The notes beneath the pieces were generated by a model that made no database searches, was not told the origin of the DNA, and worked only from the letters and a program-made list of their open reading frames with translations. Position numbers and translations under genes: made by a program. Below, piece by piece: positions 20,394 through 26,312 of a DNA stretch of 64,000 nt. The DNA is from Aurantimicrobium sp. (lineage in GTDB: Bacteria; Actinomycetota; Actinomycetes; Actinomycetales; Microbacteriaceae). Numbering within the stretch: position 1 is the first letter of the stretch; the number at the start of each line of letters is the position of its first letter. The stretch is from contig JAHEGZ010000003.1 in the NCBI GenBank assembly GCA_024644865.1, forward strand, positions 1 to 64,000, in the 5' to 3' direction.

Positions 20394-21172
20394 CCCAGCC
20401 CACGTTCTGGCAGGTCGCTCGTCGCCCTCAGTGGATTGCCGCACTCCTGCTGGTGATGGCTGTAGCGGCTGTCTTTGCGTTCTTAGGTAAGTGGCAACTC
20501 GAGCGTGCCGTCATTTCGGGCCAAAACACGGATCACCAGACTGAAACCGTCGTGCCGCTGTCGACGCTGGCAAAGCCCGGCGGAATTGTCGATGAGCGCG
20601 CTGCCGGGCACATGGCATCAGTTGGCGGCGGCCTTGATACAAACACCCTCGTCATTCTCGGCGATCGAATGAACGGTGGACAGAAGGGTTACTGGCTGGT
20701 GGGTCGATTCACCACGCCCGAGGGCGAACTTGCCGAGGCGCTTGGATGGGCTCCGACGTTGGAGTCCGTGACTGCCGTGCGCGACCGCATGCAACCGACG
20801 GCCAGCACACTGATCGGGCACGAAATTACGGGCCGATTCATGCCGTCAGAAGCACCAACCGTGCCACCTGATGGTGCTGACCCGCTGTCGATGACCACGA
20901 TGTCGGTTGCTGCCCTACTCAACGTGTGGCCCGAATCGAACCGCCTGATGTACACCGGTTATCTGGTTGCCTCAGTGCCACCGGAGGGGCTGGTCAAGAT
21001 TGACTCAACCCCACCGGTCAGTGACAGCACCTACAACTGGCTCAACATTTTTTACGCCATCGAGTGGACGGTTTTCGCTGGCTTCGCTTTCTACGTCTGG
21101 TACCGCCTGGTGCGCGATCGCCGCGAGCGTGAGCTAGAAGAGAACGCGCTCGCCGGGCTGAGCGAGGACTAG
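20390..21172 (+). CDS. SURF1 family cytochrome oxidase biogenesis protein
   Basis: The 260-residue protein has one transmembrane helix near each end (about 14-33 and 218-238) enclosing an extracytoplasmic domain. This is the SURF1 topology. FLGKWQLERA after the first helix is the family motif. SURF1 proteins assist heme insertion or assembly of terminal oxidases. It overlaps glpD by 4 bases. The 3' end overlaps the convergent MBL-fold gene by 39 bases. Confidence 0.88.
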   Translation: MTQPTFWQVARRPQWIAALLLVMAVAAVFAFLGKWQLERAVISGQNTDHQTETVVPLSTLAKPGGIVDERAAGHMASVGGGLDTNTLVILGDRMNGGQKGYWLVGRFTTPEGELAEALGWAPTLESVTAVRDRMQPTASTLIGHEITGRFMPSEAPTVPPDGADPLSMTTMSVAALLNVWPESNRLMYTGYLVASVPPEGLVKIDSTPPVSDSTYNWLNIFYAIEWTVFAGFAFYVWYRLVRDRRERELEENALAGLSED

Positions 21173-21898
21173 TCGCGCACTGAGCCCGGCTCTTGCGAAT
21201 GCTCCCTCGAGCAGCGCGCGGTCTTCGCTGAAGTGCGCCCACCCTTCCGAGTGCACCGGGAACACCTTCGCCTGTGGCAGCTTGCCAGCGACCTCGGCCG
21301 CCATGTCAGCGGTGAGCGTCAGGGGCGCGTTGTCGAATAGACCGACTCGCGCGGCACCTGTGAAGAGTACGGCGATGTCGATTGCCGGAAAACGCTCAGC
21401 GATCAGGTCGACAAGCTCTACGGCGGCGTTGTCCCCGCTGACGTAGATCGTGGGTGAGCCTGCTGACTCGAGAACGAATCCAGAGACGTCGCCGGTGATT
21501 TCCTCACAACCGACAGGGCCGTGACGAGCGGGCACCGCCGTGACGACGAACTCGCGACCGTTGGATGCGCTCACCTTCGTCGACGCCCACGGTTCAAGTG
21601 CTGTCACTGACGCGATCTGCGACTGAGCCATCGGAGTGCCAACGACTTTCGCAGCCGTCGCGACAACCTCGGCGCCGGAGACATCAAGGTTGTCGGGGTG
21701 ATGCGCGTGTGACAACGTCACCAGGTCAATCGCCGGTAGGTCGGCAGCTGCGATTGCAGGGCCAGCCGTCTTCACCAGAACGCCGCCGGGAATCGGGTAC
21801 TCACCCGGAGCGTCGAAGGTGGGATCGGTGAGCACGGTGAGCCCGTCGACCTCAATGAGAGCCGTGGGTCCGCCAACGAGGGTGATCGAAGTTGCCAT
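21134..21898 (-). CDS. MBL-fold metallo-hydrolase (last gene of aldoxime/nitrile operon)
   Basis: The 254-residue protein has a metallo-beta-lactamase fold. The metal-site motif is TLSHAHHPDNLD (around residue 65), a variant of HxHxDH found in UlaG-like hydrolases. Later metal-ligand candidates are ARHGP and PVHSEGWAHF. Its ATG shares one base with the stop of the upstream flavoprotein gene (TAATG), so it belongs to the nitrilase operon. The substrate is unknown. The tail overlaps SURF1 by 39 bases. Confidence 0.82.
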   Translation of the reverse strand: MATSITLVGGPTALIEVDGLTVLTDPTFDAPGEYPIPGGVLVKTAGPAIAAADLPAIDLVTLSHAHHPDNLDVSGAEVVATAAKVVGTPMAQSQIASVTALEPWASTKVSASNGREFVVTAVPARHGPVGCEEITGDVSGFVLESAGSPTIYVSGDNAAVELVDLIAERFPAIDIAVLFTGAARVGLFDNAPLTLTADMAAEVAGKLPQAKVFPVHSEGWAHFSEDRALLEGAFARAGLSARLVLAQPGERVLF

Positions 21899-23142
21899 TA
21901 GAAAATACCTTCCGCTGCCGCCATGAGGTCGTACTCGGGAGCCGAAAGCACGCGCTGCAGCTGCAGGCGACGCACGCCCACGTTACCGCCGTCGAACAGC
22001 GGGTAGGCCATTGCATCCTGCAGAAGCTCCATCAGCCCGGTCTTCTCTTTGTAGGCCTCGACACCGACGACGCGCATGGCGTCGGTGATGACGCCAATCA
22101 TGAGTTCGGAGGTGAACACCTTGTTGATGAGGCTGAGTTCTTGGCTGCGTCCCATGGAGCGGTCGAAGTTCCAGCAGGCCTTCCAGGTGAGGTAGCGCCC
22201 GGCCTCAATCTTGGCCTTCATGTCAGACAGAATTGTGGCCACGTTCTGGTGCTGAATGATCGGTACCGATCCACCGCGGGTTTCGGTACGAGCGAACTCG
22301 AGTGCGATGCTGAACGCCTTACGTGCCACGCCCACGGCCATCGCGCCGACCAGACCGGCGGTTGCTGTGAACGCCGTCTCTGCAATCAGGATTCCGTCGC
22401 CAACGTTGCCGAGCAGGTTTTCCTTAGGCACGCGCACGTTCTCGTAGCGGACGACACACACCTCGGCACCCGGTTGACCGACGGTCTCGATGTTTTCTTC
22501 AATCGTGATGCCGGGGGTCTTGCCGGGCACGAGGAACATTGACAGCGACTCCTGCGGCGGCTTGTCCATGCCAACGCGTGCAGCGACGGCGAGAAGGTCA
22601 GCGTGCTGACCGCCCCATCCGGCAGCGTGAGGGGTCCAGATCTTTCGACCGTTGATGACCCACTCGTCACCCTCGAGGACTGCGCTGGTTGCGAATCCCT
22701 TTGAGGGGTCGGTGTTGTGGTAGTTGGCGGTTCCGTGCGGCTCGCTGAACGACAGGCCGGCCAGTGGCGCGCCTTCGCCGTTGACGAACTGGGGAAGGAA
22801 CTTCTCGTACTGGTCTGGGTTGCCAAAGAAGAGCAGGCCCATGATGCCGAGCCCGGTCGAGAGAACCGACAGCGGAAGGCTCGACTCGACAGCGATGAGC
22901 TCCTCGGCGACGATGGCAACGTCAACCAGGCTGTTCATCGTTCCACCCAAGGGCGGGGGCACCTGGAGCTTGAGATATCCGGCCTTCACTGCAGCTTCGT
23001 AGGCATCCTTTGTCACCTCGAAGCGTCCGGCGGCGTCTTTGCCGACCATCTTGGCGCGCAGGTCGGTGAGATGCTTCGCGGCAAAGGCGCGTGCATCCAG
23101 CTGCAGCTTGCGCTGCTCGGGGCTGAGTTCGAAATCGATCAT
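21898..23142 (-). CDS. Acyl-CoA dehydrogenase-like flavoprotein
   Basis: The 414-residue protein has the ACAD fold: an N-terminal helical domain, the FAD-binding strand motif LAGLSFSEPHGTANYH with INGRKIWTPHA, and a C-terminal helical bundle. Where classical enzymes have the catalytic Glu in YEGTNEIQR, it reads LFDGGNVGVRR, so the base may be Asp or absent. It therefore may not oxidise acyl-CoA. It lies 15 bases after the aldoxime dehydratase gene and touches the MBL gene. An N-oxygenase-like role on an amine is possible but only inferred from context. Confidence 0.82.
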   Translation of the reverse strand: MIDFELSPEQRKLQLDARAFAAKHLTDLRAKMVGKDAAGRFEVTKDAYEAAVKAGYLKLQVPPPLGGTMNSLVDVAIVAEELIAVESSLPLSVLSTGLGIMGLLFFGNPDQYEKFLPQFVNGEGAPLAGLSFSEPHGTANYHNTDPSKGFATSAVLEGDEWVINGRKIWTPHAAGWGGQHADLLAVAARVGMDKPPQESLSMFLVPGKTPGITIEENIETVGQPGAEVCVVRYENVRVPKENLLGNVGDGILIAETAFTATAGLVGAMAVGVARKAFSIALEFARTETRGGSVPIIQHQNVATILSDMKAKIEAGRYLTWKACWNFDRSMGRSQELSLINKVFTSELMIGVITDAMRVVGVEAYKEKTGLMELLQDAMAYPLFDGGNVGVRRLQLQRVLSAPEYDLMAAAEGIF

Positions 23143-23157
23143 TTTTTCTTCTTTTCT

Positions 23158-24210
23158 TTAGCGGGTTGGTGTCAAAACGGTGAGGGTGGGCGAGTAGGGC
23201 AGAAAGCCGGTGAGCGGGTGACAGTTGACATATTCAAAGTGCTGCATACTCGCCCGCGTCACGACGACCTCGTGCCACAAGCGCAGGCGAACGTTGCCCC
23301 GCAGCTCCTGCGCGAGCTCAACGAAGCGGCCGAATATACGCAGGTGGGTCGGGTGCGATTCTGACCAGTCTTCGAGGCGTGTCAGGGTGTCGAAGTGCGC
23401 CACGGCAAAGGCCCGAGGGATGCGCTCACCGGCGCCGGTCGTCTCATCCATGTGTCGGCACGACAGGCAGCCGCTGGCTACGGGGTTGTCCCGAAGGTAA
23501 CGCATGCCTTCGCGCACCGAGGGTTCGAGCTCAGCCTCGTAGACCTCCTTTTCGCGACCTTCGAGTCCGTCATACAGCTCGCCCGAACGAATCGTGGCCA
23601 AGTTTTCGATGCCCGAAGCAATCACTCGCTCGCCGAGTCCTGCGGTTTGGGCTTGTGGCTGATGCGTGAGTTGAAAGCCGCCGGCGTAGTCGTCGGATGA
23701 TGAACCGGGAATACGATCGCGCATCGACCCCCAGTAGTTGTGCGACTGAATCGGGCCGTCGTGGCTGCCGAGCCCCGCCCCTGAGCCGACACTCATTGAC
23801 TGGTCGGAGTAGAGCGTCTCCAGACGTTCGTTTGGTACGTGAAAAACCTCACGAAAGTATCCGGCGTCGCCACTTTCGCGCTCACTACTCAACCAGAATG
23901 CGTCGTGGTCCGGGCGCGACTGCCAGCGAGCGAATGATTCCGACCGATCGCGCCAGTAGAGCATGGCAACCCATGTGTAGAAATCTCGTTCATCGGTGTA
24001 GTCGGCGAATTCCACGACGTCGGGTGCCTCGACTCCGTCAGCGAGCGAGGAAATCCAGGATTGAAACTCGGCGATAGTCGCGCCGGTGCCGGCTCGGTCT
24101 TGAACGCCGTAGTAGGCCATGGTGACTGGCCCGTCGATTTTTGCTGAGAAAGCCGGAACAGGAGGCACCCAGTCGTGGGGCTTGCGGCTTGGGGGATTGT
24201 GGTGAACCAC
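23158..24210 (-). CDS. Aldoxime dehydratase (heme-dependent, OxdA type)
   Basis: The 350-residue protein matches phenylacetaldoxime/aldoxime dehydratases, which dehydrate R-CH=NOH to the nitrile using a substrate-coordinated ferrous heme. It has the N-terminal RKPHDWVPPVPAF, SHNYWGSMRDRIPGS near residue 157, SGCLSCRHM near 247, and LWHEV (His313) and EYVNCHPLTGFLPY (His331). His313 and His331 are the candidates for heme ligand and catalytic histidine. The GTG start shares one base with the nitrilase stop. The next gene upstream is a nitrilase, which would take the product nitrile. Confidence 0.92.
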   Translation of the reverse strand: MVHHNPPSRKPHDWVPPVPAFSAKIDGPVTMAYYGVQDRAGTGATIAEFQSWISSLADGVEAPDVVEFADYTDERDFYTWVAMLYWRDRSESFARWQSRPDHDAFWLSSERESGDAGYFREVFHVPNERLETLYSDQSMSVGSGAGLGSHDGPIQSHNYWGSMRDRIPGSSSDDYAGGFQLTHQPQAQTAGLGERVIASGIENLATIRSGELYDGLEGREKEVYEAELEPSVREGMRYLRDNPVASGCLSCRHMDETTGAGERIPRAFAVAHFDTLTRLEDWSESHPTHLRIFGRFVELAQELRGNVRLRLWHEVVVTRASMQHFEYVNCHPLTGFLPYSPTLTVLTPTR

Positions 24211-25208
24211 TAGTCGACCGCCGATATCTCAGGGAACGAGACCTCCGTGCCGAACTGGCCGTCTCCGATGACCACGCGTTGTGAGGCGTTATTGAAAATC
24301 AACTGGGTCACGTCGGGGCGGCTGTAGTGTCCGCCCGGGTCGGCTGCGTTCTTGGCGTAGGCGATGGCTGCCAGGTCGATGTCGGCCGTGACATAACCTT
24401 CAACATCAGGTGCGAGTGGGGTAGAAATCACTGAGGAGTCAGGCCCAAAGATGGTCGCATAACCGCCACCGCCGTTGTAGATCGGCGAGATCGAGCCGTC
24501 CGCCAGGGCAAAAACCTTGGCGCCCTCGTCGCTCATCATCTGCGTCGATGCCAAGACGAAGCAGCTTCCCTCCAGCGCGTAGACCTTGGATGCGCCAAAG
24601 ACGTTTGCCTCGTGGCTCAGTGCTGGCACCATGTCGAGGCAGCCGAAGTTCGGCCATCCCGAGACGTGAATCTGCTCGTTCTGCGCGTACATCGCGTACT
24701 TTGTCAGCGGTTGCAGGTGTTCCCAGCAGTTGAGGGCACCGAGACGACCGAACTCCGTGTCGACGACCTTGATGTCAGAGCCGTCGCCCTCACCAAAGAG
24801 CGTGCGCTCGACGTGCGTGGGCTTGAGCTTGCGGCGGTGAAGAAGAATCTGTCCGGCCGAGCCGATGGCCGTCTGTGCCATGTAGAGCGTGCCGAAGGCG
24901 CGCTCGCTGTAGCCCATCACAATGGCGATCTTGTTGTCGCGTGCGGCCTCTCGAATGCGCATCATCTGCGGGCTATCGACCGACAGTGAGTTCTCGTGGT
25001 AACGACCGACGTAAGGCATCTGCTCGGGCACGGGGACCGTCCACAAGAACTGCGGGTAGCCCGGAATCCACGTTTCAGGAAAAGCGATGAGTTCGACGCC
25101 GTCGGCCGCCGCTTTTTCCAGGATGGCGATGGTCTTGTCGACGGTTCCGTCGAGATCGAGCCATACTGGCTCGGCTTGAACTGCTGCCACACGAATCTGC
25201 TGGCCCAT
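24210..25208 (-). CDS. Nitrilase
   Basis: The 332-residue carbon-nitrogen hydrolase has the complete Glu-Lys-Cys triad: Glu45 in LIAFPETWIPGYP, Lys127 in HRRKLKPTHVER and Cys161 in ALNCWEHLQPL. The CWEH signature is that of true nitrilases, hydrolysing R-CN to the acid and ammonia. The frame is open upstream to 25478. ATG 25208 is chosen because GAGGAGG lies 4 bases before it and MGQQIRVAAVQAEP is the family N-terminus. It is the first gene of the operon. Confidence 0.94.
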   Translation of the reverse strand: MGQQIRVAAVQAEPVWLDLDGTVDKTIAILEKAAADGVELIAFPETWIPGYPQFLWTVPVPEQMPYVGRYHENSLSVDSPQMMRIREAARDNKIAIVMGYSERAFGTLYMAQTAIGSAGQILLHRRKLKPTHVERTLFGEGDGSDIKVVDTEFGRLGALNCWEHLQPLTKYAMYAQNEQIHVSGWPNFGCLDMVPALSHEANVFGASKVYALEGSCFVLASTQMMSDEGAKVFALADGSISPIYNGGGGYATIFGPDSSVISTPLAPDVEGYVTADIDLAAIAYAKNAADPGGHYSRPDVTQLIFNNASQRVVIGDGQFGTEVSFPEISAVD

Positions 25209-25225
25209 GATTCCTCCTCGTTGAG

Positions 25226-25242
25226 GTTCAATTGATATGAAC
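25226..25242. promoter_or_regulatory. Short inverted repeat in the nitrilase leader
   Basis: GTTCA-N7-TGAAC lies 18-34 bases before the nitrilase ATG. It could be an operator half-site pair or a small leader hairpin. The arms are short, so support is weak. Confidence 0.25.
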
Positions 25243-25278
25243 GGTGTCGTCAGGCTACGACCGGGGTGCCCGAGCATC

Positions 25279-25314
25279 TCGGCATCGCTGGCACGAAATT
25301 CGGCATTTTGTGCA
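25279..25314. promoter_or_regulatory. Candidate AraC-type operator (21-bp-spaced direct repeat)
   Basis: TCGGCAT-N5-GCA occurs at 25279-25293 and again at 25300-25314. The two copies have the same orientation, exactly 21 bases apart, or two helical turns. That is the geometry used by AraC-family activators. It lies between the nitrilase start (71 bases away) and the divergent AraC gene (75 bases away). This is a likely shared control site. Confidence 0.6.
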
Positions 25315-25388
25315 GCCGCTCTATCGCCGACATTGAATATTCGGGATACTGAGCACACGACCCGGCAGTAGAAATCAGTTAGGCACCC

Positions 25389-26312
25389 GTGGGCAGAATC
25401 ATCGCCAGCAACACCGATGAGTGGCGCGATATTGCGAGCGCCAGCTTTGTTCCGCTGTCGATTCAGCAGTCCGCTCAAGACTTCACTGCGTCACTCGATA
25501 TGCGCCAGCTCAGCCCCGACGTGAGTATCGCCGGCGTGACCGATCAAGCCATTGTCATCAATCGCACCGAGCGCCTAGCCTCGGCATCGGTTACCGATGA
25601 CATTCATATCTCCCTGCAAGCTTCCGGCCGTGGAACGGTGAGCCAGTTCGGTCGTGTGGCGAACGTTTCGCCGGGAGTGCTCACTGTGACCGAGACCCAT
25701 CGTCCATTCACGCTCAACTATGTCGAGCCCAACCAGCGCCACATTGTGCTTCAGGCATCCCGCTCGGCACTCGGCGTTACTGATGACATGATTCGTCACG
25801 TTGCCGGGCGTCAGCTTGCAGGAGTTAACCCCGCCCGAGACGCGTATGTCTCGCTCGTCACCTCACTAATGGCGCAACCCGAGAATCTCTCCGAGTCTGC
25901 CTCCCTTGAGATGTCGACGATTGTGACTTCTCTAGCGTCGGCGATGCTGCGCTCGGCGTTCGAGTCATCCCCAGTGATGCCAACCACGAACGAGGCACTT
26001 CTGGTTGCGATGACCGACTTCATTCGCGCGCACCTGTCATCGCCCCTGCTCACTCCCGAAACGGTGGCCCGGGCCCACTTTGTTTCGCGGCGCAAACTCT
26101 ATGAGGTATTTGAGGGCTCTGGCGAGACTCCGGCCGACGTGATTCGGCGCGAGCGTATCCAGCGGGCGGCATTGATGCTCACTGATCAGGCGCAGAAATG
26201 GACCGTTGCCGATGTGGCCTTTTCGACTGGCTTTAGCGATGTGACAACTTTCTCGCGGGCCTTCCGCCGGTACTTTGGAGTCACGCCGCGCGAGTGGCGG
26301 GCATCGGTCTAG
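25389..26312 (+). CDS. AraC family transcriptional regulator
   Basis: The 307-residue protein has an N-terminal ligand-type domain (about 10-185) of the AraC-binding-like kind. The C-terminal double helix-turn-helix (about 205-305) includes VARAHFVSRRKLYEVFEGSG, WTVADVAFSTGFSDVTTFSR and the classic ending AFRRYFGVTPREWR. The GTG start at 25389 is chosen from the frame. It is divergent from the nitrilase operon across 180 bases containing a 21-bp-spaced direct repeat. It probably activates that operon in response to an aldoxime, nitrile or acid. Confidence 0.9.
   Translation: MGRIIASNTDEWRDIASASFVPLSIQQSAQDFTASLDMRQLSPDVSIAGVTDQAIVINRTERLASASVTDDIHISLQASGRGTVSQFGRVANVSPGVLTVTETHRPFTLNYVEPNQRHIVLQASRSALGVTDDMIRHVAGRQLAGVNPARDAYVSLVTSLMAQPENLSESASLEMSTIVTSLASAMLRSAFESSPVMPTTNEALLVAMTDFIRAHLSSPLLTPETVARAHFVSRRKLYEVFEGSGETPADVIRRERIQRAALMLTDQAQKWTVADVAFSTGFSDVTTFSRAFRRYFGVTPREWRASV

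Follow-up and report, generated by a model that had tools for sequence, protein, structure and literature searches.

In a 64,000-base stretch of Aurantimicrobium sp. DNA (hereafter, the window), four genes on one strand and a divergent AraC-family regulator gene form a unit that encodes a homologue of nitroalkane oxidase (NAO) next to an aldoxime dehydratase (Oxd) and a nitrilase. Judging from sequence, we consider it reasonably probable that the group is an operon, under AraC control, that breaks down or detoxifies a nitroalkane, an aldoxime and a nitrile with one carbon skeleton in common. The window takes up the first 64,000 bases of a contig of 64,966 bases; the genome comprises 1.78 Mb in 121 contigs (completeness 94.8%, contamination 4.4%). 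An earlier note on this DNA had described a same-strand unit of nitrilase, Oxd, a flavoprotein resembling acyl-CoA dehydrogenases (ACAD) and a metallo-beta-lactamase (MBL) fold protein, with a divergent AraC gene. The coordinates (AraC on the plus strand, the other four on the minus strand), the junctions and the families were confirmed, and the layout recurs in two related loci, L028 and L030. The features are as follows:

25389..26312, plus strand: AraC-family regulator; AraC helix-turn-helix (HTH) domain above the Pfam cut-off; L028 and L030 carry its orthologue at the corresponding position.
25209..25388, no strand: intergenic stretch that separates the AraC gene from the operon and is probably a control region.
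24210..25208, minus strand: nitrilase, first gene of the unit; CN_hydrolase, 345 bits against 8uxu, nitrilase motifs.
23158..24210, minus strand: Oxd, a heme protein with a GTG start; Dehydratase_hem at 269 bits, matches to solved Oxd structures.
21898..23142, minus strand: NAO homologue with the ACAD fold; PDB scores, D384, R391 and T261.
21134..21898, minus strand: MBL-fold hydrolase; Lactamase_B_2, fold neighbours; in L028, L029 and L030 its orthologue closes the unit.

The nitrilase and Oxd genes overlap by 1 base (TAGTG), as do those of NAO and MBL (TAATG), and a 15-base gap separates Oxd from NAO. Such spacing suggests that the four genes are co-transcribed. Pfam cut-offs were exceeded for CN_hydrolase, Dehydratase_hem, three acyl-CoA dehydrogenase domains, Lactamase_B_2 and AraC HTH.

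The identity of the flavoprotein is central to the proposal. Its seven top PDB sequences were all NAO (286-307 bits), and the next one was a medium-chain ACAD at 139 bits. No NCBIfam ACAD model came near its cut-off; the best one reached 152 bits where 650 are required. Similarity to Fusarium oxysporum NAO (2c0u) and to the NAO entry 3mkh extends over the whole length, and the Fusarium residues Asp402 and Arg409, which we take to be catalytic positions, correspond to D384 and R391 in the alignment. Thr261 occupies the place of Ser276, a residue presumably near the catalytic base, and the hydroxyl is retained. In contrast with 2c0u and 3mkh, the window protein is bacterial, carries Thr for Ser276, and is encoded beside oxd and nitrilase genes. 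These comparisons identify the flavoprotein as a homologue of nitroalkane oxidase. NAO enzymes convert nitroalkanes to aldehydes. A covalent substrate-flavin adduct is described for Fusarium NAO in a review (PMC3509576). Wherever product names were seen, bacterial NAO homologues were labelled 'acyl-CoA dehydrogenase family protein'.

As an alternative, the flavoprotein might be an ACAD whose substrate is the CoA ester formed from the nitrilase product. The three ACAD Pfam domains would fit such a role, and so would an AMP-binding ligase found two genes away from the 70% identical relative in locus L031. However, the relative scores (ACAD 139, NAO 307 bits) disfavour a plain ACAD identity, Asp384 stands at the position of the NAO base where acyl-CoA dehydrogenases have Glu, and the unit is without a CoA ligase. 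We regard this alternative as very improbable.

The Oxd protein gave whole-length matches to 3w08, 3a15 and 7f2y, all of them solved aldoxime dehydratases, with scores of 151-205 bits. It retains R166, S209, H289 and H313, which align with heme and active-site residues and to which we would attribute heme and acid-base roles as in known aldoxime dehydratases. Unlike the solved enzymes, it is a distant and fast-evolving member: identity within the window clade is 55-79%, and the protein lies outside the NCBIfam OxdA equivalog (aliphatic, NF050090), with 260 bits for a cut-off of 600. Oxd is rare among related bacteria: of 396 genomes from the order, the one under study alone scored above the cut-off, and of 396 from the phylum, 4 did; within the genus it was found in 2 of the 3 genomes examined. 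The nitrilase reached 345 bits against nitrilase 8uxu and harbors the motifs FPETW, RRKLKP and LNCWEH, which we take to be the stretches of the catalytic triad. Both Oxd and nitrilase look intact.

Clusters of this kind have precedents. In Bacillus and Bradyrhizobium, a probable nitrilase gene and a gene for the AraC-family regulator NitR lie upstream of oxd (PMC8955678). The window unit resembles them in that nitrilase adjoins oxd and an AraC-family regulator stands beside, and it differs in its NAO and MBL genes, neither of which is named in the portion consulted of that paper. With oxd and nitrilase overlapping by 1 base and conserved in L028 and L030, the window unit can be counted among aldoxime-nitrile clusters. 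The proposal in the earlier note of an aldoxime to nitrile to acid unit with an AraC regulator is supported, and its core was already known (PMC8955678).

Relatives of the flavoprotein were gathered by scanning genome contigs with a nine-sequence NAO alignment, and the best 80 of 261 were used. In L028 (NAO 92% identical) and L030 (87%), both from actinobacterial metagenome-assembled genomes (MAGs), AraC, nitrilase, Oxd, NAO and MBL follow the same order as in the window, and the units occupy the same site, between SURF1 and DUF3817-guaA. A third relative, L029 (NAO 87%), is a 3-kb contig that bears the OXD-NAO-MBL end of the unit. Identity to clade relatives is 87-92% for NAO, 88-96% for nitrilase, 89-92% for GuaA and 51-53% for SURF1. 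MBL, with 68-70% across the clade, diverges faster than NAO. When compared with L028, nonsynonymous and synonymous divergence (dN/dS, NG86) was 0.02/1.41 for nitrilase, 0.06/0.98 for NAO, 0.16/2.01 for Oxd, 0.13/1.75 for AraC and 0.27/1.49 for MBL, values whose ratios are rough because dS is near saturation. In all five genes dN is far under dS against both L028 and L030. Because the full order recurs in these two loci and dN is far under dS, the arrangement seems to be beyond chance.

Additional nitrile-related sequences were seen in these relatives. Locus L030 carries, after MBL and on the opposite strand, a second and different nitrilase gene (L030:11856-12851; 36% identical to that of the window, which lacks it), and the end of a second nitrilase is also visible by eye at L029:2716-3015. 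Two Oxd stretches with 90% DNA identity were detected on separate contigs of the Loclat MAG (L029:1-376 and L149:1840-2215); either a second copy or mixed strains may explain the pair.

An apparent loss of most of the unit was seen in G781, a genome of the same genus with GuaA 98% identical. Matches there are limited to MBL residues 156-254 and AraC residues 258-305: 99 C-terminal MBL residues abut 48 near-C-terminal AraC residues at L118:6950-7346, and these remnants are flanked by SURF1 and DUF3817. As reckoned from the residue numbers of the remnants, about 4.7 kb are missing. The simplest reading of these remnants is deletion of the block in one piece; a misassembly is possible. The same contig shows an extra reading frame of 483 amino acids between the DUF3817-like gene and guaA (L118:7857-9308) that is not present in the window.

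A recent foreign island was considered and rejected, given the window-like GC content of the genes, the common site in L028 and L030, and the block ends kept in G781. The GC content of the operon genes is 0.60-0.64, compared with 0.603 for the whole window. This ordinary GC, the shared site and the G781 remnants indicate that the operon predates the split of these genomes.

Association of NAO with nitrile genes was also found in other lineages. The count over 80 loci covered up to 10 kb per side, with loci cut by a contig end scored as misses, and an Oxd, a nitrilase homologue or a nitrile hydratase was near NAO in 10 of them (L028, L029, L030, L038, L041, L062, L065, L069, L079 and L082). An Agrobacterium plasmid row contains NAO, two regulators, Oxd, ABC transporter genes, an amidase, a transporter and nitrile hydratase. 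Loci L038, L041 and L065 (Pseudomonas, Variovorax and Ideonella) combine NAO, AraC and nitrile hydratase with no Oxd in the flank; an amidase is also present in L041 and L065, and a cobalt-uptake gene in L065. These three are a second kind of NAO-nitrile cluster.

A genome-wide control of linkage was made with the best 50 of the 80 loci, which belong to 47 genomes; nitrile hydratase is present in 30 of these genomes and Oxd in 21. Nitrile hydratase was linked to NAO in 4 of the 50 loci, compared with 0.14 expected (P 1.4e-5), and three of the four (L038, L041 and L065) are close kin on the NAO tree. In the tree, made of 86 rows, 13 nitrile-linked and 14 aldehyde dehydrogenase-linked rows demand at least 5 changes (9.3 in shuffles), a count that leaves out 59 unlabelled rows. 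Because at least 5 changes are needed, nitrile linkage of NAO appears to have several origins. Co-occurrence was examined in one alphaproteobacterial family by scoring only 9 NAO candidates per genome. Of 198 genomes, 7 have NAO and 31 have Oxd; 6 genomes carry both. Oxd was thus present in 6 of 7 NAO genomes versus 25 of 191 others (Fisher P 6e-5), a value that includes genomes first reached through NAO and is uncontrolled for kinship and genome size; P becomes 3e-4 without the centre genome, and 0.01 without three genomes reached through NAO.

Other neighbors of NAO may relate to its chemistry. In 13 of the 80 loci, an aldehyde dehydrogenase gene is at most 5 kb away from NAO, and in 3 loci nirB is at most 10 kb away. 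The Shinella NAO is near genes annotated as aldehyde dehydrogenase and nirBD. These neighbors are consistent with aldehyde and nitrite as NAO products. Homologues of nirB and nirD were observed about 6 kb from NAO in L095 (Poseidonocella) and L098 (Mangrovicoccus).

The earlier note had proposed that the flavoprotein forms or modifies the aldoxime. Formation of the aldoxime, for instance from an N-alkylhydroxylamine or an amine, would make the protein act before Oxd in a single linear route. Tight linkage to Oxd and the gene order agree with such a route, and N-hydroxylases exist within the ACAD fold. However, the whole-length similarity and the active-site residues are those of NAO, and relatives of the protein adjoin nitrile hydratase without a flanking Oxd in L038, L041 and L065. 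Furthermore, a two-component N-hydroxylase of the ACAD fold needs a separate flavin reductase, and none was found in the five-gene unit, to which the search was confined. This part of the proposal has consequently lost ground, and we consider it unlikely. We give the same low credence to a related possibility, that the NAO relative gained a new reaction that feeds Oxd, in which an N-hydroxylated or nitro precursor would be oxidised at the carbon beside the nitrogen to yield the aldoxime; if so, the operon would take an N-oxidised amine all the way to acid and ammonia.

In the operon model that we favor, the enzymes would act on related compounds. Oxd would dehydrate an aldoxime (R-CH=NOH) to the nitrile, which the nitrilase would then hydrolyse, giving acid and ammonia. 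The NAO homologue would turn the nitroalkane of the same skeleton (R-CH2-NO2) into aldehyde, nitrite and hydrogen peroxide in a flavin-dependent reaction, and a chromosomal aldehyde dehydrogenase could oxidise the aldehyde to the same acid that the nitrilase produces; 14 Aldedh matches are found in the genome under study. The MBL protein might hydrolyse a further derivative or conjugate. We infer the substrates, the regulation and the role of MBL from the sequences of the genes. A reason for their grouping in one operon may be that such aldoxime, nitrile and nitro compounds occur together: plants in which the aldoxime-forming P450 CYP79A61 was expressed gave off phenylacetaldoxime, phenylacetaldehyde, benzyl cyanide and 2-phenylnitroethane (PMC4446944). 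Going by the names of the MAGs, the hosts of the operon are probably freshwater bacteria.

Several observations weigh against this model. For 70 of the 80 NAO loci, the flanks examined lacked Oxd, nitrilase homologues and nitrile hydratase alike. Outside the window clade, Oxd-NAO linkage amounts to 1 case in the 50 control loci versus 0.08 expected (P 0.08). L031 holds the nearest NAO from beyond the clade (70%); its neighbors are an AMP-binding ligase and a major facilitator superfamily transporter, and Oxd is absent from its flanks, the genome having one on a different contig. None of six other actinobacterial Oxd loci examined had NAO beside Oxd; in one of these Oxd loci, L121, the sole NAO-like neighbor is a 27% ACAD-like match, and nitrilase is present in 3 of the six. 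Annotated oxd or nitrilase genes were absent from the six neighborhoods of MBL relatives that were opened, the MBL family being mostly elsewhere. No match to the NIR_SIR family of nitrite and sulfite reductases was found in any of four genomes of the group (G000, G781, G782 and G785, all incomplete), which suggests that nitrite is not assimilated via that family. Lastly, a promoter and terminator scan gave 1 and 5 sites, respectively, compared with 1.2 and 4.6 in shuffles, and hence no excess.

In another explanation, the pathway would consist of nitrilase and Oxd alone, and NAO and MBL would be general detoxifying genes caught in the same transcript. Besides the fact that both families lie mostly apart from oxd, the faster divergence of MBL (68-70%) than of NAO speaks for this explanation. 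On the other hand, all four genes stay together in L028 and L030, NAO is conserved to the degree of GuaA, and independent NAO-nitrile clusters exist in other lineages. We find the explanation rather unlikely, if less so than an aldoxime-forming flavoprotein. The earlier note had itself named, as a point against its proposal, that both families might occur mostly apart from oxd and nitrilase genes. Such is the case at the wide level (70 of 80 NAO loci and the six MBL neighborhoods), and it is not so among close orthologues: all three with 87-92% NAO identity sit in the unit.

Coupling of oxime and nitrile metabolism is already known, and the novelty of the operon appears to be a NAO relative inside the same unit. 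A 2024 review of Oxd names no NAO or MBL partner in the part seen (PMC11568032). In the open-licence literature, a search that left subscription papers mostly outside, 'nitroalkane oxidase' never occurred together with 'aldoxime dehydratase' or with 'nitrile hydratase'; queries of nitroalkane oxidase with nitrile or acyl-CoA dehydrogenase gave no title on a NAO-nitrile cluster, and no title on nitroalkanes was found for strain JS3073, which has a plasmid-borne NAO. If the operon model is true, one regulon in small-genome actinobacteria breaks down the whole nitro/oxime/nitrile set, bacterial NAO homologues gain a physiological role, and the unit hints at more biocatalysts for nitriles and aldehydes.

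For the MBL protein, fold comparison with VIA-align gave 3rpc (Z 20.0), NAPE-PLD (4qn9; 19.4 and 19.0) and SaxA (6brm; 18.0), while Foldseek placed SaxA first. The model was built from 4 sequences and has a mean predicted local distance difference test (pLDDT) score of 73, with values under 50 in the motif loop (residues 66-75). The protein shares the MBL fold with SaxA, NAPE-PLD and 3rpc and gives weak sequence matches to them (E 7e-7 to 5e-4), but identity is just 20-23%. The HxHxDH metal motif of SaxA (HTHTDH) is not found in it; the window protein has SHAHHPDNLD, that is, H..H.DN, and Asn replaces the His of the DH motif in 10 of 10 aligned family members. An isothiocyanate hydrolase of the SaxA kind is possible but was not adopted, as the motif differs, 3rpc and NAPE-PLD rank higher and the loop has pLDDT below 50. 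An accessory hydrolase is our best reading. Relatives of the MBL protein were found on 52 plasmid records, 31 of which are from Streptomyces.

Concerning the regulator, the nearest NCBIfam model of the AraC protein is FeaR, at 129 bits and under its 199-bit cut-off. No clear regulator site was seen in the intergenic alignment, which was inspected by eye only. Going by their translations, the genes that flank the unit are presumably guaB, a second guaB-like gene, glpD and a SURF1-like gene at one end; a DUF3817-like gene and guaA would follow at the opposite end.

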